The notes below the pieces were generated by a model that saw nothing but the letters and a program-made list of their open reading frames with translations, searched no databases and had not been told where the DNA came from. A stretch of DNA of 64,000 nucleotides from Coriaria nepalensis. Its lineage: Eukaryota; Streptophyta; Magnoliopsida; Cucurbitales; Coriariaceae. The stretch covers positions 10,188,501 to 10,252,500 of the forward strand of contig CP114494.1 of NCBI GenBank assembly GCA_027186245.1, given 5' to 3'. Both the position numbers and the translations under genes were made by a program. Below are positions 26,395 through 64,000 of the stretch, piece after piece (the first letter of the stretch is position 1; each line of letters begins with the position of its first letter).

Positions 26395-28775
26395 CTAAAG
26401 TCCAAGTGGAAGCCTACTCATTATATTCTGATATATGGATGAACCATTGGATAGGTTCAGACCAGGATTGGACGATGGCTCTAACTTGGCTTCTCCTTTT
26501 GGTAACACACAACCCATTTCATTAGTCTGGTGATGATGCTGTACCAAATAAGGATGAATGGGCAGACCAGGAGGAAGCCTGGGTTGAGCCATTGCCAGAT
26601 TTGCAAGGCCAGGTTGAGCCATTGCAAAAGAGAAGTCATGTGAAGGAGTAGGACCCATTTGCTGCCTTCCAACAGGAGCGAATGCAGCAGCACGCCTTTC
26701 GAATCTTGGCATACCGTTGTGCATCTGGTACATGTCAGATGGCCGGAGATGAGGCCTTTGAGCGGGTACAGAACCTGACATGCCAGAGTTGAGGTGGCTG
26801 CTGTTACGAGCGGCAGGAACGTCATGGTTATGCTTTCCTTCATATGTCGTGATTACTGATTTTAGGTCATGTGATGCCCTCTCCACATGCTTCCTCACTG
26901 TGCAACCAGGATTTGTGCACTTGTAGTAGCTCCTGCACCAAAAAAACCATTTTCCATGACACACATTTGCTAAAGACGATCTCGTACATGAAAGAAAAAG
27001 GTCAAAAGGTTTACCTAGGATTTGGGTTTCCTTTAACCACTTTCTGTCCATATTTCCGCCAGCGATATGAATCATCAAGTATATCTACTTCACTTGTCGT
27101 CTGGACCACAACTCTAGGTTCCCTTATCGCTCTTGTGGCCCCACTCATTTCTGTAGCATAAGCTTCAACTTTCCTGAGACACAAAAAGGAGAAACAGAGA
27201 TGTATATATTCTTGTGCTAGTCTTATAATATCACTTGGCAAATAAATGATTAAATGCAACTCACCTTCTCTTCGACTCAGATTCATCCCCCAGACCTTCA
27301 TAACCTAAGGGTACACTAGCATGGGTCACTCCATCTTCATCATCATCATCATCATCATCATCATTATCGTTAGAAAATGTGGAGGAGTAATCAACGGCAC
27401 CTCTTGATTCATTACCACCAACAGCCACCAATGATGTCACCTCAATGCTGTCAAGTGTGCAATCAGGGGCTCCAGCAATGTTCCCTTTTTGAACACTTGC
27501 CCTTGCCCAGGTTGGATCACCATCTTCAACATTTAGTGGCACACCTTGCTCAAGCATCTCTAGTTGCATGTCAGCTTGATGGTTAGATGAACCAGTGGCC
27601 GATCGGCGACTTGAAGGAGGCTTAGGGTGGTTATGGGTCCCTTTATAGATGATTTCTGTTATGAGGCCCTCAATAGACCGTTCTACCTTCTTCTTGACCT
27701 GACAGTTTGGATGAGTGCACTTGTAGTAACTTCGTGGAAACTCACTACCTTTTACTTGTTTTTGTCCATATTTTCTCCAGTTATATCCATCCTTGGATGG
27801 GACCCCACAAGAGCCAGAAATCATAGAATCTCCACTGCCTCTCTGCTCTCCTTCTTCATCTGCTTGCTCATCTAGTGATGGAGAATTTTCTATAGGTCCT
27901 TGATCTCCTGCTATATTATTATTCCGAATTTCATTTTCAGTGCATGACTGGGAGAAATCTGCACATGGATGAAGACCATTTCTATCTTGAGTTGATGCAT
28001 TGGATGGTTCTGCACTATGAGACTGAATGGAATTTTCTGACTGTATCGAATCCTCAATCGTAGGAAAAGATTGCAGATGAAGTAAAGATGGAGCCATCTA
28101 TATACACAAGGAAGAGAAAATCAGCATCCGAAATTCAACGAACCTGAAATCTAGGAACCAATAAGCATCTTCAAGTAAAAATTAGGAGACAAGAATAAGA
28201 GGAAAGTATATTACTTTGCATAATGCACCAAAAAGGAAAGGAGAGCCCAATTCCCCTCCAGGCTTGAAAGCAAATGACGAGGTATTGGGATCATCAAGTA
28301 GACTAAATCTACCTTTATCAATCAACTCTGACATCAACATGGAGTTCCTACTGGTACCATTTGTTACAAATGGAAACTTTCCAGTTGTTGGAGATGGCTG
28401 AGCATGCAGTGAATTAGAAAGGAAAGCAGGAGAATCAAGCAGTGTAGTTGGACTAAGGCCGGGTGGTATGGTCAAGTAAGGGGACCTAACATCAGAATTG
28501 AGTGAGAGGTCAACTGATCTAATGCTTTCAGTATTTAATCTTGGGGCATTGAATCCAGCTCTAGCTGCTATCCTCTCCACAAGTCCCCCCTGCGAGTTTG
28601 ATTTCTGCTCCTTAGGTCCCAGAAAGAGTTCCTCAGTTCTATGGCTGACAGTTTTCATGGTGGATGATTCCAAGCCAACATCTTCATCTAAGGATGACGT
28701 GAAAAATGCTCTTGAGATAGGATCAGGGGGCAACCAATCTCCAGCAACAGCCATATTTTCATTGGTCCCTGTCAT
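26395..28775 (-). CDS. WRKY2: Group I WRKY transcription factor, WRKY2-like
   Basis: Four coding exons: 28775-28215, 28097-27265, 27173-27015, 26932-26395, with GT-AG borders and consistent phases, 696 residues. Two WRKY domains bind W-box DNA (TTGAC): the N-terminal WRKYGQK is at 294-300 with C314, C319, H342, H344, and the C-terminal WRKYGQK is at 503-509. The last intron splits the C-terminal domain inside the Arg codon of PNPRSYYKC, the classic R-type intron. The N-terminal [18 protein letters not shown] and QPSPTTG give the Ser-Pro cluster that MAP kinases phosphorylate in this subgroup. An Asp run (about 433-440) is encoded by a GAT microsatellite. In Arabidopsis, WRKY2 acts in pollen, embryo polarity and ABA-related germination. 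I chose the ATG at 28775 ([14 protein letters not shown]); the frame extends up to a GTG at 28892, so a longer form is possible. Confidence 0.92.
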
Positions 28776-30942
28776 GAAAACTCCAGTCCTCTCCCTAATT
28801 TCAGCTCCAAAACAAGGTGTTCTGGAAAGGTCAAGGCAGAGTTTGGTTTTTGGGGGGATAGTGGAAGAATTGATAGATAAGTCACCCTCCACTCTACAGA
28901 ACCATACATGAGATTTTCATCTCATACGGCTCCTCGTTCAATTCTTTCGAAGTCATTGGATCCTTTTCCTCATTCGAGATCCTGAAGAGTTTAATCCGGC
29001 ATAGAGGAAAGAACTTGGTCAGAATATTAAAAGTAAGTTTAACGAAACACATTGAAATTTGATGCTATGTACTATCATCCATTCCGCCGGAATTATGAAA
29101 TAAAAGTAATGCATTGCTTATCCTAAATAAAGTATCTTCCAATAAGAACATGGAGAGAGGTTGATGTTTGAATACATATATTACGCTTAGCCGCTAAACA
29201 CAATCTGTTAATCTCAATAATGGTAGAAGTCCAGTTAGAAGTTGATAAGAGATGAACATCTGCTGGCTGCATATAACATCCACCATCACCACCTTAATCA
29301 TCAATTATAACAAATTAATGATAATAATTATAACAATAGAGAAATACAAATGGAGCTCCCTAATAGGCCATATATTTCCAGATAAGGATGAAGTTTTTCA
29401 CTTTGTACAAGCAACACAAGAACAAGCCGATGAGAAGGAGGAGGAGGTACATCGTTGTATCGAAAACAAATTCGTCGGTAAAACCCAACTTTATTATGAA
29501 ATCATAAGGATGCAACCATAAGAAATGAATATTACCCGACTGATCACATGTACAGGCTCAAAAGCAAAGCAAAGATGACATAACTAGAGGAAGTCCGGCA
29601 ATCGACTGTCGTAGCAGCGGCGGTGGCTCTAGCATCATTACAACCCTGAGCTGATGTTATTTGGTTTCAATTGAAGGGAGATTTAGAAAGAAGACTGCAA
29701 AGGAGTTCAGGTAAGAAAAACAAAAAAGCTTTACCTTCCTCCTTTCAATGTTTCTTCATTCTGTCTTGACGGTTGTTGTAGGCAGATAGATTTGTACCTT
29801 ATAATGATTCAAGATGATGATGGGTTTAAGAAAATTACAAAAAGGGAGATCTCAAATAATTAATAAATAGTATAAGCAGCAGCATCATCATCATCTTCCA
29901 ACTTTTCCTTTCTTCTTTTCTTTATGATAATGGAGAAAGGGTGGACCCAAAATGGACGGAATCTTTGAATTAGGAGAAAAAGAAAAACAGTGCCAAAGTG
30001 AGAAAGCAAAAGAGAGAGACAAGGATTAGAATAAAGTTCAAAGCTTTATTACACGGATCTTAGACTCAATTCCATCATCACATTCGCTGCTGTCGCTGTA
30101 TATTTATTTATTGATTGCAATAAAATCCTGTTTTTTATTTTATTTTATATTTATTTTTAAGACAGGAGAATCATTCAATTACTACAACCATTTATTTATT
30201 TATAATAATTCTTCAAGTTTCCTTTTTGCCTTTTTTTTAGTAATGGGTAACTCAGGGAAGGGCTGTCCGAACCCAAAAAAAAAAAAAAAACAAAAACAAA
30301 ACAAAAGAGGGAGAGGGGGAGAGAAAAGAAATGCATAGCTGCCTATTCCTGCTTTAGGTCCTGTTAGTTATGTCCCATCTACTGTTATTACTCCTAATCC
30401 ATTTCCAACTTTAGAAATCCAAGACTACAGTGCCCTGCAAGTACAACCTGGGTTGTCCTTCATATATTGTAGTCATCGGATCAGATGCATATGCTTGTGT
30501 ATTATAACAAACAAATCTCTTGTAAGCAAAATGAGTGATGGCTGGTAAGGAAGGGAAGTAGGTAATTCTCCATGTGCAAAGTGATTCACTGATACCTGCA
30601 AAATACTACACCCATCCATTCTCAGTTTTATACCTGATACTAAGTTACTCTTCTCCTCAATGTAATCAACAAATATTATGAAACAAAACAGAGTTACACC
30701 GGGTACTAAACCCTACAATGCTATTTCTTCTACAACTTTACAAAAAGTGTTCTACGTATATATAAAATCCGGAAACTAAAACATGTAAAAATGCACAAGA
30801 CATCAGTTAGTAAAACTGTTGACTCCAATGAAGCTAGAAAGGACAGATGCAGCTGCTTCCTTCCATGTGTGGCTCATTCAGTTGTGTATGCTCCTTACAG
30901 TGGGAAGAAACAAGACGAGCAACAACTTGTTGGCTCTCTGTC
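28776..30942. promoter_or_regulatory. WRKY2-like upstream region and 3' flank of the receptor-kinase gene
   Basis: 2.2 kb with no supported gene. The portion nearest 28776 is probably WRKY leader, and the frame stays open to about 28900. A purine-rich/ATC-repeat stretch lies at 29880-29900 and an A17-type run at 30275-30291. The right end carries the receptor kinase 3' UTR. Confidence 0.5.
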
Positions 30943-33900
30943 TCATGGCTCCTCCTCCACATAAGAGTCTTTCAGCGAGAAACCATCAAGGACATCGTCC
31001 ATATTGACCTGAAGCTCTTTAAACATTGCCATTACCTGAACCATGGTTGGTCTACGGAAAGGCCTGTCTTCTAGGCATTCAAAGGCAATGCTTAAACACT
31101 CATACAGTTCATCCTCTTCTGTGTTCTGTGCCAACAACTCGGGGTCCAGTATCTCATTGGTTCTCTTCTCTCTCTGGAGCTGCTTTGCCCATCCAACAAG
31201 ATTGTTGTCATTACCAAATTGTGATGGGTCTATAGGCCTCTTGCCAGATAAAAGCTCTAGTAATATGACTCCATAACTATAGACATCCCCTTTTGCCGTG
31301 CACCTAAAGCTTTGATAGTACTCAGGCGGAACATATCCCGGAGTTCCGGCAAGAGTGCTCACACTAAGATGGGTGTCAAGGGCATTTACCAATCTTGCCA
31401 TCCCAAAATCAGAAACTCTTGCCTCAAAATTCTCATCCAAAAGGACATTACTAGACTTCATGTCTCTGTGTATAATGTGAGGAATGCAGCTATGATGAAG
31501 GAAAGCTAGACCCCTTGCCGACCCAAGAGCTATCTTCTTTCTCACTGCCCAGCTTAGCTTTGAGTTTGAACCGTCCCGCTTGTCTCTCTCATGAAGAACA
31601 GCCTCCAAACTGCCCCACTTCATGTACTCGTACACAAGAAGCCTCTCCTCTCCAATTTTACAGTACCCTAGCAATGGAACCAGGTTTCGGTGATTAATTT
31701 TCCCTATAGTCTCCATTTCTGCCATAAACTCCCTATCACCTTGCCCTGTGACGGGGATAAGCTTCTTGATAGCGACAATGCAGCCATCCTTGAGTTGTGC
31801 CTTGAAAACCTCACCGAATCCTCCTGACCCTATCAAGCTCTCCGCACTGAAACCATTTGTGGCCTCAAGTAGGTGGGCAAAAGTGAGCTTTCGCAGAGGT
31901 TTCTCAAATGTGGCAATATTGATGCTCAGAGGCTCGGGAGCACTTGAAAGTTTCCAGCTGCTGCTCCCTGAAGTTGGGAGGCTTTCAATGTACTTGTCTC
32001 TTCTTTCCTCCCTATTCTGATACTTGTTCACGCGATAAAGGGCTAATAAAAGTCCGAGGATACACAAGAAGAAGAATGTGATACCTAAGACCATGCCAAT
32101 CTCAGTAGACCACTTTCTTTTATCATGGGAGTGGAAAGTAGCCAGGTGGCTTCCAGAGCCACAAGGAGGCAAGGGTACCCCACAAAGTCCAGAATTATTC
32201 TCATACCTTGATGCCGGAAAAGTCATCAACTGACCTCCAGTGGGGATAGGGCCGGAGAGGTTGTTGTTTGACACATCAAGGTCGCTAAGAAAAGATAGAG
32301 ACCCTAATGATCCCGTGATGAATCCTTGGAGATCATTATGAGAGAGGTCCAGAACTCCAATTGCTTTTAAATTGCCAAGACTGTCTGGAATCTGTCCATA
32401 TAATGTGTTGTGTCCCAAATTCAAGACTTGAAGATAGTTCATCGTACCAAAATTTTCAGGAATAGTTCCTGACAAGGCATTGTAAGCGAGATCAAGGTAT
32501 ATCATACTCCCATGGCTAGCAAAGGTATACATAGTAAGGCCAGAGTAGATTCTTGTGGTTGGGCACGAATGAACCATAGGAAACCCTTCCAACCTCTCTG
32601 CCCTGATTCCTACAAACTCAACGAGCCCTCCAGCACCCCTGCAAGCTGTACCACCCTCATTCCTGACAAATGCAAACTGTTTCCCAGAAATACTTCCCGG
32701 GAGTATCATGCCAGCTTCGTCAGCAAGCTCGGGTGGGATAGCACCATTTAATTCATTGCTATTCAAATCAAGCCAAATAAGGTTCCAACACTTACCAAGC
32801 TCGGGTGGGATCGGTCCAGTGAGTGAATTGTCCCCTAATTGGAGGATAGCAAGGTTGAGGAGATTTCCTATACCAGCGGGCACTTGTCCAGTAAGCCGGT
32901 TGCTAGAAAGTGATCACCATATCATGTTGGTGCAGCTGGCAATGGATTGTGGAATGATTCCGGTAATGCGGTTGTTGTTGAGGATCAACATCTCTAGGTT
33001 GCCTCCAGCAATGCATATGCCTTGTGGGATTTCTCCCGTTAGGTTGTTTGCCCACATGACGAGGTCTGAGAGATTCGGCAAGGTCCAAATCTGTGGGGGA
33101 ATGGGGCCAGTCAGACTGTTGAAGCTAAGGTCAATTGTTTTGAGGTTGCTGCAGTTGCCGAGCTCATGGGGCACTGTCCCAGAGAGAAAGTTGTTTGGAA
33201 GAAGAATCCTTTCCAGGGAGGAGCCAACTAGGGAGGTACAGAAACCGGGAGGAATGTTCCCTGTGAAAGCATTGGAACTGAGGTCCAGCACTTGAAGCTG
33301 AGTACAATTGGTGAGAGACACAGGAATCACACCACTTATGTTGTTGAATGGCAGGTAGAGATATTTCAGGCTGTGGAGGTTGCTGACAACCGCACTGAGA
33401 AAGTCACCAGAAAGCTGATTGTTGCCAAGGTTGAGAGAAACTAGAGAAGAGCACGAGGAAAAAGTGGGAGGCAACCCACCAGAGAGTTTGTTGGCAGATA
33501 GATCAAGCTCTTGCAGTGTTCTGCAAGAGCGTCCTACGTCGGGCGGGATCTCCCCAGAAAACTGATTATGGTTTAGATACAGCTGCGTCAACTTGTTGAA
33601 ATTTCCCAGCAAGGAACCTGGAATTATGCGCTGCAGCTGATTGTGGGAGAAGTCCAGCGTCTCCAAGAGCAGGCAATTGGCTAAGCTGGATGGAAACCCA
33701 GGCCCTGCAAGGTTGTTATGACTTAGCCTGAGAGTAGTGAGGTTGGTGCAGGGTCCGAAATTAAGGGCGGAGAAGTTGCCGGAGAAGTTGTTATGGGAGA
33801 GATCCAGATACTTGAGGGATGCAGGAGAGTCTGCCACAAAACGTGGTGATATCTCACCAGACAACATGTTGTGGGAGAGGTCGAGTGTGGACAGAGCTTT

Positions 33901-34452
33901 GAAAGGCAGGAGGAGAGTGGAACCCAGTTTGCCCGAGATGAGATTGCGGGAGAGATTGAGAGAGACAAGACGAGAGCAGGAGAGGGGGAAAGATGATGCC
34001 GGAAGAGGGAGAGACAAGTTGTTGGAGGAGAGGTCGAGAGTCTGGAGGGGACACGAAGTGGTGGTGTTGGAGGAGGCGGTGAGATCCCCAGAAGAGAAAG
34101 AATTGGCGCGCAAGAAGAGATGGTTGAGAGATGGAAGGGCAGTGAGGTAGGGGAGATGAAGGGGCCCAGTGAGGCCTGCATTAGTGAGGTTGAGGATACT
34201 AACACGGCCATCAGGAGAGCAAGAAACGACACGCCATGAGCAGGCAGTGGCGGCATTCTCCGTCCAGTCGGCCAAGAAACCATTTGGATCGGACCTGACG
34301 GAGGAGCGCTTGAAAGCCATCAACATGTGTATGTCTTCAGCACTACCGGAGGCTGCGTTGGAGAAACAAAACTGCGTCAACGCCAAGCACAAGCACAAGC
34401 ACAAGAAAAAGATACCAAGCTGAAGCTGTTCTGGTCTCCATACTCTCTCCAT
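30943..34452 (-). pseudogene. BRL: BRI1-like (BRL1/BRL3-type) LRR receptor kinase with one in-frame stop
   Basis: A single uninterrupted frame of 1,170 codons, intronless as in BRI1/BRL genes and of BRL length, except for one TGA at codon 513 (32916-32914). Order: signal peptide (1-~35); N-terminal cap pair CSWRVVSCS; LRRs; the ~70-residue island (about 575-648, containing [19 protein letters not shown] and the Cys residues ACRG and HSCPTTR); final LRRs; membrane helix (785-808); Ser/Thr kinase (about 874-1148). The kinase has [10 protein letters not shown], a Lys in [18 protein letters not shown] and DFGMARL, all intact. BRLs are plasma-membrane brassinosteroid receptors of vascular tissue. 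The TGA lies in [16 protein letters not shown], where relatives have Val or Ile. As written, translation stops before the hormone-binding island and kinase. Downstream codons show no decay, so this is a recent null allele, or a base-call error. Confidence 0.9.
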
Positions 34453-37270
34453 CGATCCGACCTCTTTCTTCTCTCTGTTTCACTTGTTTTCTGTGGTTTC
34501 CATCTTGTTTTTCTTTTCCCCAGAATCTGATGCCTATGCATAAAACTAACTGCTCAGGTGCCTAAGCATCAAAGTGTTAGTTAAGGTGGTAAGAGAAATG
34601 CAGATAGAAGAAGACAGATGAGATGATACCTGCAGGGTGTAGGAATGGAGGAGTGTAAAGGGCCCTTTGTGGCAGAGATGGTACTGCTACTGATTCCGGT
34701 ACCGGTACTGCCCTCCAGAGTACGTTGATTGAGGGGAGGTGAGGAGAACAGCGACAAATATAGAAAGAAAATGGTTTATGCTGTTGAGTTTAATGATTGC
34801 TGAGTGTCTTAGAAAAGACAAAAAGGTGACCACTTGGGGGTTGGGGCTCGGCTCAGCAAAGAGGGGAGAGAGAACGAATTAATTGGCTTCCTTCATTTTG
34901 TGGTCAAACGTTGGCTTTGTGCACTACCGCCCCAAGGAATAAAATATACGAAGGCTACAGACTAGAGTACAGTAGGAGTAGCGTCTCTTGCAGTTACAGT
35001 GAATAAAATAAGGAGCGGATTCACTGATTGTTTTAATGTCTCTGTCTATTTTTATGGATACGGTTTTGCTATCTTTATAAATTTAATAATTAAAATAAGT
35101 ATTGTATTAAAATTATTTATATTAATAAAAAAAATTATATGATTAATATATAAGTTATTAATTTATTTTTTTATCTAATATATTAAAATCATTTTTAATA
35201 AATAAAGTTCTTTTACTTTTTTTTTTCATAGACTAAGTTTAATTTCTTCATTCATCGAGCTTTTTTCTAAACTGAAATCTTTTACCGAGTTTAATTTCTC
35301 TCTTTTTTAACCAAATTATACCGAGTTCTTCATTTTTTCTTCTCAAAGAATTTTTTTCTTCATTTTCAGACCGAGATATAATTTAATATATTTCATAGAA
35401 CGAGTTCTCAAGAAGAAAGATGATCGAGTTCTTGGTCTGTGGTCTTAGACCTAGATCACATGTCGGTCTAGATTGAGATCGCATGTCGGTTTGGACCGAG
35501 ATCACATGTTCGACCATTCTTCCCTTAGATCTATCGACTTTTCGACTATAAATTATAAGAGATGTCATTCGACCATTCGACCATTCGACCTTCAACTTTC
35601 AACCTTTCAATCTTTCAATCTTTCGATCCTTCAACCACAGACCAATAAGAGATCTCAGTCTATCTTTCTCTGCATCTCTCACATGTTGGTATGTGCATCT
35701 CACATGTAACTTTAAGATGCCCTTCGACCCTTCGAAGAAACTCAAATTATCTGAGACATCGGTCTAAAAAACCTATCGACCCATCGATCCATTTACTATA
35801 ATTTATGTGAGATGCTCATCGACCCATCGACTTCTCGACCCTTAGACCCTTCGACCCTTCAATCTATCGATCTATCGATCCTTCGACTATAATTTATGTG
35901 AGATGCCCTTTGACCGCAAATCGATATGAGATCCCGAACTGTATCGTTTTGCATCTTAGACTGACATGTGAGATGTCGGTTTGTGCATTTCAGAGCGACA
36001 TGAGAGATGCCTTTTGATCCTTCGAAAAGACTCAAATTATGTTGTCAGTCTGAGATGTCTATCGACCCATCAACTTTCAACCTTTCGACTATAACTTATG
36101 CATCTCAGTCTGACATATGATATGTTCTTCGATCTTTCGAAGATACTCATATTACGTGAGACGTCAAAGCTGAGATGCATGTCGACTATTCAGGAACTAG
36201 AGAACTCAGTCTGAGAAAGACTAACATATATAGAACTTGAGAACTCGGTCCAATCGGGGAATTATGAACTGGGAACTCGGTCTAGACCGAGAACTATAGA
36301 TAGAATATCAGTCTCTAGATTTCAATTCAGATCAAATATCGGGTCTTTTGATTTCAGATTTAGATTCCAGATATTCAGATCTAATATTGGTTTCTAGATT
36401 TTAGATTCTGATCAAGTATGAATGAATATCATCATTCGTCAATATTTAAAGAAAAAAAGAGAAAGAGAGAAGTCGCAAATATTAGAAAATACGAAAGAGA
36501 AATGATAAAATATGACTAATAAATTAATTATATTTTAATCGGTTTATATTTTTATCTTTTTCTTATTATATAACACATATTTTAACTATTAAATTTATAA
36601 AAACAATCAAAATTTATATTAAAAAACAAATATAAAAAATAAAAATAAAAATTAAATCTACTCGTAATAAAAATATACGGGAGGAAGGAGCAGGAGCTTA
36701 TATATTTATTTGATTGCAGTCGCGACAAACAGAAACGCATAGTCCTAATCCTAGGGAGAGAGGCACGGGGCGCGGGACATGCGGTCGCGCGATTCTGTCC
36801 TTCCTACTGCAGTCTGCACGAATGTACATACACATACGCACACGAGCACGTCTTATTCCAGATTTAAGGCCCTAAATACTAAAACGAGCACGTCTTACTT
36901 CAGATTAAAAGCCCCACTAAATACTAACACTTCTCTTTACTCTTTTCTATGGTTTACTCCTTACATATAATTATGTATTCAATTAATAATAATTTTTTCC
37001 CACCACCATCATTATACAAACGCCAACTTTATCGTATCTGATTACCTTAATACACAAACAAATAAATAAATAAACAAACAAACAAATGATGTCTGCCAAA
37101 CAAAACAGCGGAATCTTCGCAGAGAAAGCAGGGTGATTAATTTGTCCATTTTCTTCGAAGTCCAACCTTACCCAACTGAGGTCGCCCCATTCCTTGCCTG
37201 CGCCTGTATATTAATTAGGATCAGACTAATCAGATAATCTTAAATAATATTAAAAAAATATTATAGATAT
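34453..37270. promoter_or_regulatory. Upstream region of the receptor kinase gene
   Basis: The first ~600 bp are the presumed leader and promoter on the minus strand. The rest is very AT-rich, with a degenerate repeat block at 35440-36420. From 36430 to 37270 it is mostly A/T-rich with no supported gene. Confidence 0.45.
35440..36420. repeat. Degenerate tandem repeat block with TCGACC and GAGATG modules
   Basis: Recurring modules are ACTATAATTTATGTGAGATG (near 35795, 35885 and, altered, 35545 and 36105), chains of TTCGACC/ATCGACC, and GTCTGAGATGT-type spacers. They recur at irregular intervals of roughly 90-110 bp. The right part changes to AACTCGGTC/AGACCGAG palindromic modules and then TTTCAGATT repeats. 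No coding potential is seen. Origin unknown. Confidence 0.65.
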
Positions 37271-50880: not shown

Positions 50881-51753
50881 TGAGTTGGGTTGTATCCAAT
50901 ATACCCCCTCCGATGGCTAAATTAGCCGTATGAATTTTCACTAATACTTAGATAAATAGTAGATATTTTTGTTAGTGTCAAAAAGCATGTAATTTTTACT
51001 AGGATTAGAGTTTTAATATTTATACTACCTCACTAGAGATAATGATATGATTTACTTTACTCGTGGTGCACTCCTATTAGTGGTGTAGATTGGCACCCCC
51101 CGTTTATAAAACCTCTCCTTTCTCGATTCAAATCCGTTTGTTTGAGTGCACCACTTTAACCATGGCCAACATGATCATCACATTACTAGCTTAGTCCATC
51201 AACTCAGGTCAGACTCCAGATCCCTCAATTAGTTTTATTGGTGAGTTCGAGGTGAGCTCTCATTTCCTTAGCTTGGTCCAGCCAATGTCAGTTGCTTCTC
51301 ATGGAGCTCAGTTAGCCAAAGACGGAATTCCTCCCTCCCTTCCCACCCAAACAAATGACCATTTAAAAAAAAAAAAAATCCATTCGTTTTGAGTCCTGCT
51401 CCATTTCGCTTGTAAATTAAATTCAAAATTGAAGGGAACCTAACTGTAATTTGCTTAACCTTAGGGGATTAAGCCATAATTTAGCAAAAGAGAAAAATAT
51501 GAAGGAAGATAAGGTGGACCGGACCCCGCAGCTTTTTTATTTTTTGGATAGACCCGCAACTTTTAATTTCTCACCGGACAATGAACATCACGTCACAGTA
51601 GTAACACTCATCCCGGAACAACGAAAAATATACGTAGCGGGTAAAACGAAATGATATAAACATACGTAGCGCCGTAGCGGGTAAAACGAAACGGGGAAAA
51701 AAAAGGCATAAGACCCAGAAGAGAGTTGCGTGCGCCTGAAACGGAGAGGAGAT
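50881..51753 (+). promoter_or_regulatory. PEX5 upstream region
   Basis: No gene is supported. The left part may be retroelement remnant. Near the gene, an 18-bp direct repeat CGTAGCGGGTAAAACGAA occurs at 51633-51650 and 51673-51690, about 65-120 bp before the ATG. Confidence 0.45.
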
Positions 51754-54186
51754 ATGGCCATGCGTGAGCTAGTAACAGGCGGAGCAACTTGTGCCGTACC
51801 GGGCTCGTCTTCTTCTTCTTCGAATCCTCTTGGCGCTCTTGCTAACGCTCTTACCGGCTCCTCTTCAAAGACACAGGTCTTTCTCTTTCTAGCATAATTA
51901 GCTTACAATTCTATTTTCATGGCAACCCAATTGTTATGTTTTTAGCCATTACTTTCCCCTATATATTTTGCTATGTTTCTATCCCTACTGCGTTTATTTA
52001 ACTCTTCAGATTAAGCATCTGCTATGTTTTTCTATTTCCCTGTATATTGTTTATGGCCTTGTATTTCGGAGTAGAATTTACTAGTTAATTCCCTTCACCC
52101 TTTTCAGCAAGAAACCTTGAGGGAAATACCTACATCTGCATCCACAGTTTCCGAGAGGCTCTTTTACCCTGATGCAAGTCAGCTTCCAGGGTCAGAGTTC
52201 GATCAGCCTCTTTTGCATCCTGATACTCAGGTCCTTTTTACCTTCTTCTTGGTATCCTCTTAGGATTCCCTATCCGTATTTGATTGGGTATCACCTGTCA
52301 CCGTTTATTTCCTTTATTGCAGGCCTCAGAATTTATCCGCAGCTTCCGCTCCCCTGCAGATCAGAGTGGTTTGGCAGATGCATGGAATGAGTTACAACTT
52401 TCTCACGTTCCTCCTCTTCATGCCAAAGAAATTCAACAGAACCTCCCTGAATTTGAAGGCTTATATAATCGAGGAGCTGCTATGCAACTTCAACCAACTT
52501 TGGATGGTACTTTTGAAGTCCTTTAATTTAATTTATTGATTAAGCAATTAAGAACTTTGAATTGCCTCTCAGAGAGATGCTTCCAATGTTAATTAGTGAA
52601 TACTTATTTTCGCTTTAAAGCTTTTCTCAAGCTACAAATTTAGCTGTTTGGGGATGGACTGTCAGTTGAGGAGCATATTACATAATTGTCCATTTAACTG
52701 CATTGCAGGGCCTCCACAAAGAGTGCTATCAAGTTTTCTGCAATCGTTCGTTTACAGTAGTCATGGTGGAATGCCTTTTCGGCCTACTGCTCTTCCCCTT
52801 TTAGGACTGTCTCAAGGTGATAAAAAATGCATACGTGATCGTAGCAGCATAATGGCTCGACACTTTTTTGCAGACAAGGGTGAAGATTTTATAAATGCAC
52901 AGGTTCGGAAGTTCATTTCTTTTTATATTTGGGTAAGGAGAAACAAAAATGCACAAAACTTTGTGGTTGATTGTCTTCAACCCCATGTGTAGGGGCTCTC
53001 TTTGTGTTATGTTTGGATTGACAATAGGATTTCATTTTCAGTTTAGTTCAATTAGTTATAAAAGGTGGGCAGAATGAAAGGATATATTTTTGTGACACCC
53101 ACAGGTGGGTTTTTTTTGTTTGTTTTGTGGCGGGGGGGGGGGGGGGGGTTGGAGGGCTTCACTATGATTCCTTGCTCACATTTCATTGATTTTCATCAGA
53201 ATAGTAATCTTGAGGTGTATGTATATCTTGATCCTCTTTGTGGTTCAGTGGTAAATACTGGTATGCTTATATGGACTATTATAATCTTCTCCAGGTAAAT
53301 GCACTTTTATCATCTTTAGATATTGACAACGATGCACAGGCTAAGGAACCTCTTCCTGGGAGACTCCATGACTTGGAGGAGTATTGGAATGAATCCCAAG
53401 GTATGCGGAATGCAAGGAGTCATACTGCAGATGGATGGGTTGGTGAATATAGCCAACTAAAGTCACGAATTGGAGACCCTGAGTTTTGGGCACATTCTTT
53501 TGAACAGCAACATGGTGCCAATGGTTGGGCTTCAGAATTTGAGCAGGTGAGAATACTGTATCTTATCTCCTTGATTGTATTTCCAGCTATCTGATGCTTT
53601 TCATGCAACTCAATGATTATCCTGTGCTACTAGGAAATCTAGAATCTAATATTCTCTGGTGTTGGAGTGCACATATGAAATGAGACAAAGTTTTCTAGGT
53701 TTTGTTAGCTATAGTTGGTCTCTAAAATTAAGCAATCAATTATTTTAGCGTTCCCCTCAAGTTTTATCTCCTTAATAGGACATCTTCAATATTTCCATTT
53801 ATCTTCTCCTTCCCATAAAAGGAAAACTTATAGAAAGAGAGGGAGAGAGATATTTCCATGACGCAAAGGTTGTAGTACACTCATGTTTAGTGGTCCTTTT
53901 TTTCGTTCTGTGCTTAATGCTACTTGTGTATTTATCATCTCAATCATAATCCACAGTGAGCATAACAATGGACTTAATTTCCTATATGATTTTATTGTTG
54001 CTCGTGTTTTATAAATGACTATTCTAATGTCTGGATTCTTACAATATCTCTCTGGCTACAGGATCAATCTCAATTGGCTTCAATAGATCAAATGGGAGGT
54101 GTAAATATTGCAAACTTAGCTGCCAGGGAGAGACTCGTATGCTGCTTGCAAATACGCTAGCTCAAAATGAGGACCCTAAATTTCAG
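51754..54186 (+). pseudogene. PEX5: 5' half of PEX5, peroxisomal import receptor (truncated, frameshifted)
   Basis: Exons 51754-51876, 52108-52230, 52323-52506, 52709-52902, 53295-53546, 54062-54186; GT-AG borders and phases all fit. PEX5 binds PTS1 cargo with C-terminal TPRs and docks at the peroxisome through N-terminal WxxxF/Y motifs. Seen here: MAMRELVTGG start, a Cys at residue 13 in the N-terminal motif that is ubiquitinated for recycling, DRSSIMARHFFADKGEDF in the region linked to PEX7 binding, and WVGEY, WAHSF, WASEF. About 334 of ~730 codons are present. All TPR exons are missing: after the sixth exon come intron, copia and telomere. In exon 6 one base is missing (GAGAGACTCG where GAGCAGACTCG would fit), shifting the frame to a TAG. 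The upstream exons look undamaged, so loss is recent, or the end is misassembled. Confidence 0.9.
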
Positions 54187-54410
54187 GTCCGTATGGTCTA
54201 TTATGACTTTGATGTCTCTCTTAGAGTTCTGACAAGGTGTGCTTATGGTGAGATTCGGGGAAGAAAAATGAGTAATATATGTTTCAGTTTTTTTCCCCTT
54301 GAAGTTGGACCAAACCATCCTATATAGTTGAAAAATTGAATTTAGAAGTGGAAAAACTACTACAACATCATTCACCCCCACTCCCATGTCTCTCTCTCTA
54401 TATATATATA
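54187..54410 (+). other. Start of PEX5 intron 6
   Basis: Normal GT donor at 54187, then T-rich intron sequence up to the TATATATATA tract that borders the copia LTR. No acceptor or further exon follows in the window. Confidence 0.7.
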
Positions 54411-54578
54411 TGAAAAAACTTTGGTAATTTCTATTATTTTCATGTTACAACAATAGACTATTTATAGATAGGAAACCCTAGATTAGTTATAGTAACTTTT
54501 AACAATTTATTTACAAACTCATATTTTAGGAAAGTATACTAAGATTTCTCCTAACAACATTTTTCCATATTTTCAACA
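54411..54578 (-). repeat. Copia 3' LTR
   Basis: 168 bp with TG (54411) and CA (54577-54578) ends on the plus strand; the element-strand start is TGTTGAAAATATGG. The adjacent polypurine tract fixes the inner edge. Confidence 0.75.
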
Positions 54579-55260
54579 CTCCCCCTCAAGCTGGTTCAAA
54601 GATGTCTAGTAAACCTAGCTTGCATACAGGCTTGTCGAATTGAATATTGTGTAGTCCTTTGGTAAAGATATCTGCTACTTGTTGCTCTGTGGGAATATAT
54701 GGCATACACACAATGTCTTCTTCCAACCTCTCTTTAAAGAAATGTTCTTCAATTTCCACATATTTAGTCCTGTCGTGTTGAACCGGATTATGAGCAATGT
54801 TGATAGTTGCTTTGTTGTCACAGTAGAGTGTCATAGGAGTAGTACTTGAGATTTTTAGGTCCTTAAGTAGTCTCTTTAGCCATAATATTTCACAAATCTC
54901 ATGAGCAAAGTTGCTTTAAACTCAGCCTTTGCACTACTTCTAGCTACGACATTATGTTTTTTACTTCTCCAAGTTACTAAATTCCCGCCAACATAAGTAC
55001 AATAGTCGGAAGTAGATCTTCTATCAGTCACAGTACCAATCCAGTCAACATCTGTAAATGCTTCAATTCTGATGTGAGCTCGATTTTAGAATAGTAAACC
55101 CTTCCCGATTTTCCTTTTAGGTATTTTAGAATTCTATACATAGTGGCAAAATGTTATTCTCCAAGTGAGTGCATGAATTGACTCATAACAGTAACTACAA
55201 ATGCTATATTTGGTCTAATATGAGATAGATAGGTGAGTCTTCCCATCAGTCTTCCCATTA
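54411..55260 (-). mobile_element. Ty1/Copia fragment: 3' LTR, polypurine tract and RNase H, cut off by the telomere
   Basis: Minus-strand element inside a PEX5 intron. A short 3' LTR (54411-54578) is preceded on its own strand by the polypurine tract AGCTTGAGGGGGAG (54579-54592). RNase H and the pol tail follow: MTLYCDNKATINIAHNPVQH, HFFKERLEEDI and PTEQQVADIFTKGLH. More distal pol (LTYLSHIRPNIAF...VTVMSQFMHS) is frame-broken. The copia homology runs right up to 55260 and is replaced by telomere repeat. The rest of the element, including its 5' LTR, is absent. Confidence 0.88.
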
Positions 55261-55261
55261 G

Positions 55262-58200
55262 TTTAGGGTTTAGGGTTTAGGGTTTAGGGTTTAGGGTTTA
55301 GGGTTTAGGGTTTAGGGTTTAGGGTCTAGGGTTTAGGGTCTAGGGTTTAGGGTCTAGGGTTTAGGGTCTAGGGTTTAGGGTCTAGGGTTTAGGGTCTAGG
55401 GTTTTTTAGGGTCTAGGGTTTAGGGTTTAGGGTTTAGGGTTTAGGGTTTAGGGTTTAGGGTTTTTAGGGTTTAGGGTTTAGGGTTTAGGGTTTAGGGGTT
55501 TAGGGTTTAGGGTTTAGGGTTTAGGGTTTAGGGTTTAGGGTTTGGGGTTTAGGGTTTAGGGTTTGGGGTTTAGGGTTTAGGGTTTAGGGTTTAGGGTTTA
55601 GGGTTTAGGGTTTAGGGTTTAGGGTTTAGGGTTTAGGGTTTAGGGTTTAGGGTTTAGGGTTTAGGGTTTAGGGTTTAGGGTTTAGGGTTTAGGGTTTAGG
55701 GTTTAGGGTTTAGGGTTTAGGGTTTAGGGTTTAGGGTTTAGGGTTTAGGGTTTAGGGTTTAGGGTTTAGGGTTTAGGGTTTAGGGTTTAGGGTTTAGGGT
55801 TTAGGGTTTAGGGTTTAGGGTTTAGGGTTTAGGGTTTAGGGTTTAGGGTTTAGGGTTTAGGGTTTAGGGTTTAGGGTTTAGGGTTTAGGGTTTAGGGTTT
55901 AGGGTTTAGGGTTTAGGGTTTAGGGTTTAGGGTTTAGGGTTTAGGGTTTAGGGTTTAGGGTTTAGGGTTTAGGGTTTAGGGTTTAGGGTTTAGGGTTTAG
56001 GGTTTAGGGTTTAGGGTTTAGGGTTTAGGGTTTAGGGTTTAGGGTTTAGGGTTTAGGGTTTAGGGTTTAGGGTTTAGGGTTTAGGGTTTAGGGTTTAGGG
56101 TTTAGGGTTTAGGGTTTAGGGTTTAGGGTTTAGGGTTTAGGGTTTAGGGTTTAGGGTTTAGGGTTTAGGGTTTAGGGTTTAGGGTTTAGGGTTTAGGGTT
56201 TAGGGTTTAGGGTTTAGGGTTTAGGGTTTAGGGTTTAGGGTTTAGGGTTTAGGGTTTAGGGTTTAGGGTTTAGGGTTTAGGGTTTAGGGTTTAGGGTTTA
56301 GGGTTTAGGGTTTAGGGTTTAGGGTTTAGGGTTTAGGGTTTAGGGTTTAGGGTTTAGGGTTTAGGGTTTAGGGTTTAGGGTTTAGGGTTTAGGGTTTAGG
56401 GTTTAGGGTTTAGGGTTTAGGGTTTAGGGTTTAGGGTTTAGGGTTTAGGGTTTAGGGTTTAGGGTTTAGGGTTTAGGGTTTAGGGTTAGGGTTTAGGGTT
56501 TAGGGTTTAGGGTTTGGGGTTTAGGGTTGGGGGTTTAGGGTTTGGGGTTTAGGGTTTAGGGTTTAGGGTTTAGGGTTTAGGGTTTAGGGTTTAGGGTTTA
56601 GGGTTTAGGGCTTTAGGGTTTAGGGTTTAGGGTTTAGGGTTTAGGGTTTAGGGTTTAGGGTTTAGGGTTTAGGGTTTAGGGTTTAGGGTTTAGGGTTTAG
56701 GGTTTAGGGTTTAGGGTTTAGGGTTTAGGGTTTAGGGTTTAGGGTTTAGGGTTTAGGGTTTAGGGTTTAGGGTTTAGGGTTTAGGGTTTAGGGTTTAGGG
56801 TTTAGGGTTTAGGGTTTAGGGTTTAGGGTTTAGGGTTTAGGGTTTAGGGTTTAGGGTTTAGGGTTTAGGGTTTAGGGTTTAGGGTTTAGGGTTTAGGGTT
56901 TAGGGTTTAGGGTTTAGGGTTTAGGGTTTAGGGTTTAGGGTTTAGGGTTTAGGGTTTAGGGTTTAGGGTTTAGGGTTTAGGGTTTATGGTTTAGGGTTTA
57001 GGGTTTAGGGTTTAGGGTTTAGGGTTTAGGGTTTAGGGTTTAGGGTTTAGGGTTTAGGGTTTAGGGTTTAGGGTTTAGGGTTTAGGGTTTAGGGTTTAGG
57101 GTTTAGGGTTTAGGGTTTAGGGTTTAGGGTTTAGGGTTTAGGGTTTAGGGTTTAGGGTTTAGGGTTTAGGGTTTAGGGTTTAGGGTTTAGGGTTTAGGGT
57201 TTAGGGTTTAGGGTTTAGGGTTTAGGGTTTAGGGTTTAGGGTTTAGGGTTTAGGGTTTAGGGTTTAGGGTTTAGGGTTTAGGGTTTAGGGTTTAGGGTTT
57301 AGGGTTTAGGGTTTAGGGTTTAGGGTTTAGGGTTTAGGGTTTAGGGTTTAGGGTTTAGGGTTTAGGGTTTAGGGTTTAGGGTTTAGGGTTTAGGGTTTAG
57401 GGTTTAGGGTTTAGGGTTTAGGGTTTAGGGTTTAGGGTTTAGGGTTTAGGGTTTAGGGTTTAGGGTTTAGGGTTTAGGGTTTAGGGTTTAGGGTTTAGGG
57501 TTTAGGGTTTAGGGTTTAGGGTTTAGGGTTTAGGGTTTAGGGTTTAGGGTTTAGGGTTTAGGGTTTAGGGTTTAGGGTTTAGGGTTTAGGGTTTAGGGTT
57601 TAGGGTTTAGGGTTTAGGGTTTAGGGTTTAGGGTTTAGGGTTTAGGGTTTAGGGTTTAGGGTTTAGGGTTTAGGGTTTAGGGTTTAGGGTTTAGGGTTTA
57701 GGGTTTAGGGTTTAGGGTTTAGGGTTTAGGGTTTAGGGTTTAGGGTTTAGGGTTTAGGGTTTAGGGTTTAGGGTTTAGGGTTTAGGGTTTAGGGTTTAGG
57801 GTTTAGGGTTTAGGGTTTAGGGTTTAGGGTTTAGGGTTTAGGGTTTAGGGTTTAGGGTTTAGGGTTTAGGGTTTAGGGTTTAGGGTTTAGGGTTTAGGGT
57901 TTAGGGTTTAGGGTTTAGGGTTTAGGGTTTAGGGTTTAGGGTTTAGGGTTTAGGGTTTAGGGTTTAGGGTTTAGGGTTTAGGGTTTAGGGTTTAGGGTTT
58001 AGGGTTTAGGGTTTAGGGTTTAGGGTTTAGGGTTTAGGGTTTAGGGTTTAGGGTTTAGGGTTTAGGGTTTAGGGTTTAGGGTTTAGGGTTTAGGGTTTAG
58101 GGTTTAGGGTTTAGGGTTTAGGGTTTAGGGTTTAGGGTTTAGGGTTTAGGGTTTAGGGTTTAGGGTTTAGGGTTTAGGGTTTAGGGTTTAGGGTTTAGGG

Positions 58201-61200
58201 TTTAGGGTTTAGGGTTTAGGGTTTAGGGTTTAGGGTTTAGGGTTTAGGGTTTAGGGTTTAGGGTTTAGGGTTTAGGGTTTAGGGTTTAGGGTTTAGGGTT
58301 TAGGGTTTAGGGTTTAGGGTTTAGGGTTTAGGGTTTAGGGTTTAGGGTTTAGGGTTTAGGGTTTAGGGTTTAGGGTTTAGGGTTTAGGGTTTAGGGTTTA
58401 GGGTTTAGGGTTTAGGGTTTAGGGTTTAGGGTTTAGGGTTTAGGGTTTAGGGTTTAGGGTTTAGGGTTTAGGGTTTAGGGTTTAGGGTTTAGGGTTTAGG
58501 GTTTAGGGTTTAGGGTTTAGGGTTTAGGGTTTAGGGTTTAGGGTTTAGGGTTTAGGGTTTAGGGTTTAGGGTTTAGGGTTTAGGGTTTAGGGTTTAGGGT
58601 TTAGGGTTTAGGGTTTAGGGTTTAGGGTTTAGGGTTTAGGGTTTAGGGTTTAGGGTTTAGGGTTTAGGGTTTAGGGTTTAGGGTTTAGGGTTTAGGGTTT
58701 AGGGTTTAGGGTTTAGGGTTTAGGGTTTAGGGTTTAGGGTTTAGGGTTTAGGGTTTAGGGTTTAGGGTTTAGGGTTTAGGGTTTAGGGTTTAGGGTTTAG
58801 GGTTTAGGGTTTAGGGTTTAGGGTTTAGGGTTTAGGGTTTAGGGTTTAGGGTTTAGGGTTTAGGGTTTAGGGTTTAGGGTTTAGGGTTTAGGGTTTAGGG
58901 TTTAGGGTTTAGGGTTTAGGGTTTAGGGTTTAGGGTTTAGGGTTTAGGGTTTAGGGTTTAGGGTTTAGGGTTTAGGGTTTAGGGTTTAGGGTTTAGGGTT
59001 TAGGGTTTAGGGTTTAGGGTTTAGGGTTTAGGGTTTAGGGTTTAGGGTTTAGGGTTTAGGGTTTAGGGTTTAGGGTTTAGGGTTTAGGGTTTAGGGTTTA
59101 GGGTTTAGGGTTTAGGGTTTAGGGTTTAGGGTTTAGGGTTTAGGGTTTAGGGTTTAGGGTTTAGGGTTTAGGGTTTAGGGTTTAGGGTTTAGGGTTTAGG
59201 GTTTAGGGTTTAGGGTTTAGGGTTTAGGGTTTAGGGTTTAGGGTTTAGGGTTTAGGGTTTAGGGTTTAGGGTTTAGGGTTTAGGGTTTAGGGTTTAGGGT
59301 TTAGGGTTTAGGGTTTAGGGTTTAGGGTTTAGGGTTTAGGGTTTAGGGTTTAGGGTTTAGGGTTTAGGGTTTAGGGTTTAGGGTTTAGGGTTTAGGGTTT
59401 AGGGTTTAGGGTTTAGGGTTTAGGGTTTAGGGTTTAGGGTTTAGGGTTTAGGGTTTAGGGTTTAGGGTTTAGGGTTTAGGGTTTAGGGTTTAGGGTTTAG
59501 GGTTTAGGGTTTAGGGTTTAGGGTTTAGGGTTTAGGGTTTAGGGTTTAGGGTTTAGGGTTTAGGGTTTAGGGTTTAGGGTTTAGGGTTTAGGGTTTAGGG
59601 TTTAGGGTTTAGGGTTTAGGGTTTAGGGTTTAGGGTTTAGGGTTTAGGGTTTAGGGTTTAGGGTTTAGGGTTTAGGGTTTAGGGTTTAGGGTTTAGGGTT
59701 TAGGGTTTAGGGTTTAGGGTTTAGGGTTTAGGGTTTAGGGTTTAGGGTTTAGGGTTTAGGGTTTAGGGTTTAGGGTTTAGGGTTTAGGGTTTAGGGTTTA
59801 GGGTTTAGGGTTTAGGGTTTAGGGTTTAGGGTTTAGGGTTTAGGGTTTAGGGTTTAGGGTTTAGGGTTTAGGGTTTAGGGTTTAGGGTTTAGGGTTTAGG
59901 GTTTAGGGTTTAGGGTTTAGGGTTTAGGGTTTAGGGTTTAGGGTTTAGGGTTTAGGGTTTAGGGTTTAGGGTTTACGCTTTAGGGTTTAGGGTTTAGGGT
60001 TTAGGGTTTAGGGTTTAGGGTTTAGGGTTTAGGGTTTAGGGTTTAGGGTTTAGGGTTTAGGGTTTAGGGTTTAGGGTTTAGGGTTTAGGGTTTAGGGTTT
60101 AGGGTTTAGGGTTTAGGGTTTAGGGTTTAGGGTTTAGGGTTTAGGGTTTAGGGTTTAGGGTTTAGGGTTTAGGGTTTAGGGTTTAGGGTTTAGGGTTTAG
60201 GGTTTAGGGTTTAGGGTTTAGGGTTTAGGGTTTAGGGTTTAGGGTTTAGGGTTTAGGGTTTAGGGTTTAGGGTTTAGGGTTTAGGGTTTAGGGTTTAGGG
60301 TTTAGGGTTTAGGGTTTAGGGTTTAGGGTTTAGGGTTTAGGGTTTAGGGTTTAGGGTTTAGGGTTTAGGGTTTAGGGTTTAGGGTTTAGGGTTTAGGGTT
60401 TAGGGTTTAGGGTTTAGGGTTTAGGGTTTAGGGTTTAGGGTTTAGGGTTTAGGGTTTAGGGTTTAGGGTTTAGGGTTTAGGGTTTAGGGTTTAGGGTTTA
60501 GGGTTTAGGGTTTAGGGTTTAGGGTTTAGGGTTTAGGGTTTAGGGTTTAGGGTTTAGGGTTTAGGGTTTAGGGTTTAGGGTTTAGGGTTTAGGGTTTAGG
60601 GTTTAGGGTTTAGGGTTTAGGGTTTAGGGTTTAGGGTTTAGGGTTTAGGGTTTAGGGTTTAGGGTTTAGGGTTTAGGGTTTAGGGTTTAGGGTTTAGGGT
60701 TTAGGGTTTAGGGTTTAGGGTTTAGGGTTTAGGGTTTAGGGTTTAGGGTTTAGGGTTTAGGGTTTAGGGTTTAGGGTTTAGGGTTTAGGGTTTAGGGTTT
60801 AGGGTTTAGGGTTTAGGGTTTAAGGTTTATGATTTAAGGTTTATGGTTTATGGTTTAGGGTTTAGGGTTTAGGGTTTAGGGTTTAGGGTTTAGGGTTTAG
60901 GGTTTAGGGTTTAGGGTTTAGGGTTTAGGGTTTAGGGTTTAGGGTTTAGGGTTTAGGGTTTAGGGTTTAGGGTTTAGGGTTTAGGGTTTAGGGTTTAGGG
61001 TTTAGGGTTTAGGGTTTAGGGTTTAGGGTTTAGGGTTTAGGGTTTAGGGTTTAGGGTTTAGGGTTTAGGGTTTAGGGTTTAGGGTTTAGGGTTTAGGGTT
61101 TAGGGTTTAGGGTTTAGGGTTTAGGGTTTAGGGTTTAGGGTTTAGGGTTTAGGGTTTAGGGTTTAGGGTTTAGGGTTTAGGGTTTAGGGTTTAGGGTTTA

Positions 61201-64000
61201 GGGTTTAGGGTTTAGGGTTTAGGGTTTAGGGTTTAGGGTTTAGGGTTTAGGGTTTAGGGTTTAGGGTTTAGGGTTTAGGGTTTAGGGTTTAGGGTTTAGG
61301 GTTTAGGGTTTAGGGTTTAGGGTTTAGGGTTTAGGGTTTAGGGTTTAGGGTTTAGGGTTTAGGGTTTAGGGTTTAGGGTTTAGGGTTTAGGGTTTAGGGT
61401 TTAGGGTTTAGGGTTTAGGGTTTAGGGTTTAGGGTTTAGGGTTTAGGGTTTAGGGTTTAGGGTTTAGGGTTTAGGGTTTAGGGTTTAGGGTTTAGGGTTT
61501 AGGGTTTAGGGTTTAGGGTTTAGGGTTTAGGGTTTAGGGTTTAGGGTTTAGGGTTTAGGGTTTAGGGTTTAGGGTTTAGGGTTTAGGGTTTAGGGTTTAG
61601 GGTTTAGGGTTTAGGGTTTAGGGTTTAGGGTTTAGGGTTTAGGGTTTAGGGTTTAGGGTTTAGGGTTTAGGGTTTAGGGTTTAGGGTTTAGGGTTTAGGG
61701 TTTAGGGTTTAGGGTTTAGGGTTTAGGGTTTAGGGTTTAGGGTTTAGGGTTTAGGGTTTAGGGTTTAGGGTTTAGGGTTTAGGGTTTAGGGTTTAGGGTT
61801 TAATGTTTAGGGTTTAGGGTTTAGGGTTTAGGGTTTAGGGTTTAGGGTTTAGGGTTTAGGGTTTAGGGTTTAGGGTTTAGGGTTTAGGGTTTAGGGTTTA
61901 GGGTTTAGGGTTTAGGGTTTAGGGTTTAGGGTTTAGGGTTTAGGGTTTAGGGTTTAGGGTTTAGGGTTTAGGGTTTAGGGTTTAGGGTTTAGGGTTTAGG
62001 GTTTAGGGTTTAGGGTTTAGGGTTTAGGGTTTAGGGTTTAGGGTTTAGGGTTTAGGGTTTAGGGTTTAGGGTTTAGGGTTTAGGGTTTAGGGTTTAGGGT
62101 TTAGGGTTTAGGGTTTAGGGTTTAGGGTTTAGGGTTTAGGGTTTAGGGTTTAGGGTTTAGGGTTTAGGGTTTAGGGTTTAGGGTTTAGGGTTTAGGGTTT
62201 AGGGTTTAGGGTTTAGGGTTTAGGGTTTAGGGTTTAGGGTTTAGGGTTTAGGGTTTAGGGTTTAGGGTTTAGGGTTTAGGGTTTAGGGTTTAGGGTTTAG
62301 GGTTTAGGGTTTAGGGTTTAGGGTTTAGGGTTTAGGGTTTAGGGTTTAGGGTTTAGGGTTTAGGGTTTAGGGTTTAGGGTTTAGGGTTTAGGGTTTAGGG
62401 TTTAGGGTTTAGGGTTTAGGGTTTAGGGTTTAGGGTTTAGGGTTTAGGGTTTAGGGTTTAGGGTTTAGGGTTTAGGGTTTAGGGTTTAGGGTTTAGGGTT
62501 TAGGGTTTAGGGTTTAGGGTTTAGGGTTTAGGGTTTAGGGTTTAGGGTTTAGGGTTTAGGGTTTAGGGTTTAGGGTTTAGGGTTTAGGGTTTAGGGTTTA
62601 GGGTTTAGGGTTTAGGGTTTAGGGTTTAGGGTTTAGGGTTTAGGGTTTAGGGTTTAGGGTTTAGGGTTTAGGGTTTAGGGTTTAGGGTTTAGGGTTTAGG
62701 GTTTAGGGTTTAGGGTTTAGGGTTTAGGGTTTAGGGTTTAGGGTTTAGGGTTTAGGGTTTAGGGTTTAGGGTTTAGGGTTTAGGGTTTAGGGTTTAGGGT
62801 TTAGGGTTTAGGGTTTAGGGTTTAGGGTTTAGGGTTTAGGGTTTAGGGTTTAGGGTTTAGGGTTTAGGGTTTAGGGTTTAGGGTTTAGGGTTTAGGGTTT
62901 AGGGTTTAGGGTTTAGGGTTTAGGGTTTAGGGTTTAGGGTTTAGGGTTTAGGGTTTAGGGTTTAGGGTTTAGGGTTTAGGGTTTAGGGTTTAGGGTTTAG
63001 GGTTTAGGGTTTAGGGTTTAGGGTTTAGGGTTTAGGGTTTAGGGTTTAGGGTTTAGGGTTTAGGGTTTAGGGTTTAGGGTTTAGGGTTTAGGGTTTAGGG
63101 TTTAGGGTTTAGGGTTTAGGGTTTAGGGTTTAGGGTTTAGGGTTTAGGGTTTAGGGTTTAGGGTTTAGGGTTTAGGGTTTAGGGTTTAGGGTTTAGGGTT
63201 TAGGGTTTAGGGTTTAGGGTTTAGGGTTTAGGGTTTAGGGTTTAGGGTTTAGGGTTTAGGGTTTAGGGTTTAGGGTTTAGGGTTTAGGGTTTAGGGTTTA
63301 GGGTTTAGGGTTTAGGGTTTAGGGTTTAGGGTTTAGGGTTTAGGGTTTAGGGTTTAGGGTTTAGGGTTTAGGGTTTAGGGTTTAGGGTTTAGGGTTTAGG
63401 GTTTAGGGTTTAGGGTTTAGGGTTTAGGGTTTAGGGTTTAGGGTTTAGGGTTTAGGGTTTAGGGTTTAGGGTTTAGGGTTTAGGGTTTAGGGTTTAGGGT
63501 TTAGGGTTTAGGGTTTAGGGTTTAGGGTTTAGGGTTTAGGGTTTAGGGTTTAGGGTTTAGGGTTTAGGGTTTAGGGTTTAGGGTTTAGGGTTTAGGGTTT
63601 AGGGTTTAGGGTTTAGGGTTTAGGGTTTAGGGTTTAGGGTTTAGGGTTTAGGGTTTAGGGTTTAGGGTTTAGGGTTTAGGGTTTAGGGTTTAGGGTTTAG
63701 GGTTTAGGGTTTAGGGTTTAGGGTTTAGGGTTTAGGGTTTAGGGTTTAGGGTTTAGGGTTTAGGGTTTAGGGTTTAGGGTTTAGGGTTTAGGGTTTAGGG
63801 TTTAGGGTTTAGGGTTTAGGGTTTAGGGTTTAGGGTTTAGGGTTTAGGGTTTAGGGTTTAGGGTTTAGGGTTTAGGGTTTAGGGTTTAGGGTTTAGGGTT
63901 TAGGGTTTAGGGTTTAGGGTTTAGGGTTTAGGGTTTAGGGTTTAGGGTTTAGGGTTTAGGGTTTAGGGTTTAGGGTTTAGGGTTTAGGGTTTAGGGTTTA
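55262..64000 (+). repeat. Telomere, (TTTAGGG)n
   Basis: 8.7 kb of Arabidopsis-type telomere repeat to the window end, about 1,250 units. The G-rich strand points outward, as at a right chromosome terminus. The first ~300 bp carry variants: alternating TCTAGGG/TTTAGGG (55321-55410), TTTTTAGGG, TTTAGGGG, TTTGGGG. Later variants are few and clustered (56487-56540, 56611, 56988, 59975, 60822-60856, 61802); the rest is uniform. Confidence 0.97.

Follow-up and report, generated by a model that had tools for sequence, protein, structure and literature searches.

A candidate healed chromosome end in Coriaria nepalensis, with telomere repeats joined to a truncated copia element inside PEX5

The final 64 kb of contig C14 of the Coriaria nepalensis assembly (C14:10188501-10252500, here called the window; the assembly comprises 316 Mb in 20 contigs) runs from the first half of a PEX5 gene into a fragment of a copia retroelement, and from there directly into telomere repeats. 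Comparison with the end of contig C15, which carries a complete PEX5, suggests that the tip of the C14 chromosome has been lost; a break inside the copia element was probably followed by short templated repair and healing by telomerase. The DNA searches with C14 and C15 sequence were made in this one genome, which is masked in places.

Results

The region of PEX5 exons 2-6, used as a DNA query, matched C14 itself (100%) and one other place, C15:10198382-10200561 (88%). We compared the terminal 39.5 kb of C15, ending at base 10207500, with the window, and found collinear pieces of 85-91% identity (window 5167-9682, 21016-28834, 28980-30071, 30197-35009 and 51605-54411), separated by DNA not common to the two ends at that level; weaker (64-70%) and simple-repeat matches are also present. 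The final collinear piece ends where the copia long terminal repeat (LTR) begins (54411), and C15 has no copia insertion there, the element being found on C14 only. On C15, PEX5 is complete, with 15 exons and an open frame of 746 amino acids counted from the second ATG, and is followed by about 1.4 kb of flank and then, from about 10207345, by degraded telomere repeats. These repeats begin about 6.6 kb beyond the last aligned base on C15, and a stretch of that length seems to be missing from the C14 tip. As judged from this alignment, C15 likely displays the arrangement of the C14 end before the break.

PEX5 is defined by an N-terminal region with WxxxF/Y motifs and a C-terminal tetratricopeptide repeat (TPR) domain. 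The C15 protein has nine such motifs and the TPR half. Its best database matches (120 of 490 listed) reach at most 77% over the full length, many of them under the name peroxisome biogenesis protein 5, and it also matches solved receptors for peroxisomal targeting signal 1 (PTS1), above which two engineered TPR proteins rank. Judged by these best matches and by the solved PTS1 receptors, the C15 protein is PEX5.

The C14 copy (Table 1) retains exons bounded by AG acceptors and GT donors. An earlier reading made from the sequence only had described six correctly phased exons; this holds for exons 1-5 and fails for exon 6, where, relative to C15, a one-base deletion beside 54130 and a 3-base insertion nearby shift the frame into a premature stop. 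Exons 1-5 of the two copies differ at 41 of 870 bases and 21 of 290 residues (nonsynonymous divergence dN 0.033, synonymous divergence dS 0.103, Nei-Gojobori). Replacements on C14 affect the conserved sites H153 (118 of 120 relatives), G224 (117 of 120) and E232 (119 of 120), at all three of which C15 retains the conserved residue; at some less conserved sites, such as 50, 85 and 116, C15 is the copy that departs from the 120 relatives. Because only three of the motifs remain and the cargo-binding TPR half is absent, the remnant does not answer to the definition of PEX5 as the PTS1 receptor. Taken with the frameshift and the replaced conserved residues, this makes the C14 copy, by all that its sequence tells, a pseudogene. 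The sequence-only reading had already proposed that the TPR domain was removed from this locus.

The sequence-only reading had proposed to search the assembly for exons 7 onward and for an intact copy. Exons 7-15 with some 3′ flank gave a single match, C15 itself with its complete gene, which speaks against a relocation of these exons within the readable genome; as far as this genome can be read, the distal sequence is lost from C14 and has not moved. A search with the 1.4-kb flank of C15 gave seven matching rows, itself and six of at most 185 bases. We also considered and rejected the loss of a common subtelomere from C14, as all matches of this flank outside its own locus are short.

The copia fragment, of which only one LTR is left, cannot be dated by LTR comparison. 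From its reading frame we take the internal part to be of the copia RNase H type; a Pfam scan of a 109-amino-acid piece returned no family. The fragment has at least 39 relatives in the genome (40 places were scored of 496 candidates, one being the window), the best of them 89% identical. In 31 of the 39, similarity stops at query base 854 or 855 (window 55253-55254), and in an alignment of eight copies across the breakpoint, seven run on as copia past the point where the window switches, while one (L035) is unaligned there. The element in C14 is truncated within copia sequence.

At the junction the preceding 12 bases are duplicated with one difference (TCTTCCCATCAG, TCTTCCCATTAG) and TTTAGGG follows. 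The second 12-base unit was not found in any of the seven alignable copia copies, and the tetranucleotide TCTT stands both before and after the first unit. TTAG at the junction had been proposed to pair with the telomerase template, but this fails on register: priming by TTAG would predict TTAGGG, whereas the sequence continues as TTTAGGG. One or two junction bases at most fit the template. The Plasmodium study gives 3 to 6 bases in register with the telomerase template at such junctions (PMC5550746). Because the C14 junction falls short of this, de novo telomere addition is argued here by likeness and is not proven.

The telomere array itself spans 8.7 kb, with 1,217 of 1,240 repeat tokens perfect (Tandem Repeats Finder: 55261-64000, 99% matches). 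It starts with nine perfect units, followed by seven TCTAGGG units and other variants, and 18 of the 21 imperfect tokens lie within the first 1.8 kb (tokens at the junction and the window edge excluded). As the sequence-only reading had it, the start of intron 6 is followed by the copia fragment and then by outward-oriented TTTAGGG repeats to the edge, and the window edge is indeed the contig end. Its statement that no subtelomeric satellite is present also stood, as none lies between the copia fragment and the array.

To place this junction among others, the inner boundary of the array was compared across 14 chromosome ends. At the five ends besides that of C14 where such a boundary is present (C15, C2, C17, C18 and C19), the transition is gradual and passes through degenerate units, while at C14 it is abrupt. 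Accordingly, the fraction of perfect units in the first 150 array bases is 0.65 at C14 versus 0.28 at C15 (where the array compared comprises 156 bases only), 0.05 at C2, 0.23 at C17, 0.19 at C18 and 0.05 at C19. The starts of C7, C11, C12, C13 and C16 have no telomere-like block, the start of C14 consists entirely of array (CCCTAAA repeats), and at the starts of C5 and C10 the boundary could not be placed. Outside the comparison stand the starts of C6, C9 and C20, which are array where readable, and those of C1, C3, C4, C8 and C15, which are masked. The C14 end thus combines outward repeats at the contig end with their abrupt attachment to formerly internal sequence without a native subtelomere, as is expected of a healed end.

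Table 1. Features of the PEX5 remnant, copia fragment and telomere array in the window
Feature	Position	Strand	Remarks
PEX5 exon 1	51754..51876	+	ATG at 51754; second in-frame ATG at 51760
PEX5 exon 2	52108..52230	+	aligned to C15
PEX5 exon 3	52323..52506	+	aligned to C15
PEX5 exon 4	52709..52902	+	aligned to C15
PEX5 exon 5	53295..53546	+	bears 3 WxxxF/Y motifs (9 in the whole C15 protein)
PEX5 exon 6	54062..54186	+	frameshifted; premature stop at 54158-54160
PEX5 intron 6, start	54187..54410	+	224 bases, ending in a (TA)n tract, the copia insertion site
copia 3′ LTR	54411..54578	-	168 bp, TG...CA; adjoins purine-rich GAGGGGGAG tract
copia internal 3′ end	54579..55253	-	5′ part of the element missing
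12-bp near-tandem duplication	55238..55261	+	two units, at the break
Telomere array (TTTAGGG)n	55262..64000	+	outward; variants concentrated in the first 1.8 kb

Discussion

The results can be arranged into the following course of events. The end of C14 would once have resembled that of C15, with a full PEX5 as the last recognised gene, about 1.4 kb of unique flank and graded repeats. The region would have been duplicated (dS about 0.1), after which the copia element entered intron 6 of PEX5 on C14 only. As the truncated element suggests, C14 would then have broken within copia; the broken end may have copied its own last 12 bases, using the 4-base TCTT repeat as a primer, and telomerase would have added TTTAGGG on one or two paired bases at most. 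The resulting loss of about 6.6 kb of distal sequence may have been tolerated because C15 keeps a complete PEX5. The copia element may have had a role in the break.

Several observations weigh against this course of events. The telomerase seed is short, and the variant units near the junction suggest an old or rearranged array, not a brand new one. C14 may in fact extend past base 10252500, given that the contig size is a multiple of 2,500, and masked portions of the genome could hide the absent second half of PEX5. Moreover, a 4-kb probe from 0.7 Mb inside C14 (at 9.50 Mb; the best 40 of 49 candidates scored) matched C15 over 36 bases only, for which reason homology between C14 and C15 can be claimed for about the last 50 kb only.

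The sequence-only reading had claimed a break in copia within PEX5 and a new telomere. Breakage, loss and capping are borne out by the C15 end, the single match of exons 7-15 and the abrupt junction; as the source of the new telomere, de novo addition is the more probable and capture of an existing telomere the less probable. In the latter case, the broken C14 end would have been joined to an existing telomere, or would have copied one by break-induced replication. The near-tandem duplication at the join suits end-joining repair, and the variants in the first 1.8 kb could derive from a donor array: TTTGGGG, present four times in the C14 array, also occurs at other ends (for example, 10 times at the start of C2 and 14 at that of C18), and TCTAGGG stands beside TTTAGGG, as single TCTAGGGTTTAGGG pairs, three times at the start of C5 and once at that of C6. 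Yet no donor subtelomere is seen at the join, and the alternating 28-base TCTAGGG/TTTAGGG pattern of C14 was found in none of 12 other telomere-repeat stretches compared, which cover part of the ends only. We regard capture as unlikely, though it deserves to be kept in mind.

Less probable still, and in our view rather improbable, is that the end of a copia copy was wrongly joined to telomere reads during assembly, PEX5 on C14 being complete in the plant. The breakpoint does lie inside a repetitive element with its many other copies, the assembly is partly masked, and the join between copia and telomere is known from the assembled sequence alone. Against such a misjoin, the missing half of PEX5 has no second copy in the assembly, a mix-up between copies is unlikely when the nearest scored one is 89% identical, and the junction has a 12-bp duplication of its own. 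The decay of the remaining C14 exons points the same way, though it could predate any break.

It is very improbable that the array is interstitial, with the chromosome running on beyond it and the window marking the edge of a telomere-to-internal fusion: the contig does stop within the array, its size being a multiple of 2,500 like those of 13 of the 20 contigs, C14 among them, and masked stretches at contig starts come in 2,500-base steps, but an internal remnant would usually be shorter than these 8.7 kb of TTTAGGG, 98% perfect, and the sister end C15 likewise enters telomere-type repeats 1.4 kb past PEX5.

Breakage of C14 inside copia and healing by telomerase, if correct, would be one more instance of a process already known, though seldom so clear in a plant. 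Retrotransposon-linked instability of telomeres has reportedly been described for the MoTeRs of Magnaporthe. There, as at C14, a retroelement adjoins telomere repeats; MoTeRs, however, insert in telomeres, whereas the C14 element is one copy of a dispersed copia family. Broken plant chromosomes are said to have healed in McClintock's maize, after gametocidal breaks in wheat (Tsujimoto 1997) and in irradiated Luzula. In these cases, as probably at C14, a new telomere came to stabilise the broken end, whose distal part was lost; they were, however, induced or selected, while the C14 end arose naturally and is known from an assembly in which a sister end likely keeps the state before the break. 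Among the publications listed in literature searches, which were reviews and non-plant cases, none dealt with this locus. One review treats the healing of plant chromosomes after induced breaks (PMC9498494); healed plant breaks are mostly known from cytology or induced deletions. In the Plasmodium falciparum 3D7 reference, 5 of 28 ends are reported as healed, and at four of these the repeats lie within a truncated gene (PMC5550746). The Plasmodium cases concern a haploid parasite and antigen-gene families, whereas C14 concerns a conserved housekeeping gene with a duplicate as backup.

C14 and C15 would offer base-level states before and after the event within one genome; the breakpoint is defined, the measured loss would amount to about 6.6 kb, and the C15 copy is a probably functional backup. 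It is an evenly balanced proposition, in our judgement, that after a genome duplication gene loss at chromosome tips can proceed by single healed breaks: one tip would be cut back within a gene, at the site of a retroelement insertion, and its duplicate would retain that gene. Duplicates would then be lost in one step, the two tips recording the states before and after. With paired ends of other polyploid assemblies, the rate and the sequence rules of healing, and its share in the loss of duplicate genes, become testable.

Other observations on chromosome ends and the duplicated region

At the other ends (L007, L022, L023, L024 and the end of L005), telomere-like blocks measure 0.16-2.4 kb, and their inner degenerate zones favour differing variants (TTTCGGG, TTTTGGG, TTGAGGG and TTTGGGG). 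The starts of C5 (L010:1-400) and C10 (L015:1-300) show GTGGGG-like low-complexity sequence before degenerate CCCTAAA arrays, possibly reflecting basecalling or assembly trouble. Short perfect TTTAGGG runs also occur within the largest contig, the first places listed being C1:4001965, C1:5592420 and C1:42459338; they are possible telomere remnants or scaffold joins.

A gene conversion tract beside the break was considered and rejected, since identical runs of 244 and 120 bases in other parts of the collinear pieces make the 113-base one at 54172-54284 unremarkable. The 4-kb interior probe carries a gene that, from its frame, is presumably aconitase; its longer matches (about 70-74%) include places at like positions on C8 and C12 (11.17 and 10.21 Mb) and on C6 and C9 (0.37 and 0.38 Mb), a pairing as expected for duplicated chromosomes.

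A BRI1-like receptor kinase gene lies 17 kb inward of PEX5 (30946-34479, minus strand) and has a single in-frame TGA at 32914-32916, while its counterpart on C15 has an uninterrupted frame of 1,176 codons from stop to stop; dS between the copies is 0.117. The stop on C14 is an apparent second loss of a duplicate, or a sequencing error. The best database matches of the BRI1-like gene reach 74%, and those of both this gene and PEX5 are spread across many eudicot families. Finally, a 69-bp tandem array of 8.7 copies occupies 13858-14465, and related sequence (64-70%) occurs in inverted orientation upstream of the C15 PEX5, at about 10195310-10196247.

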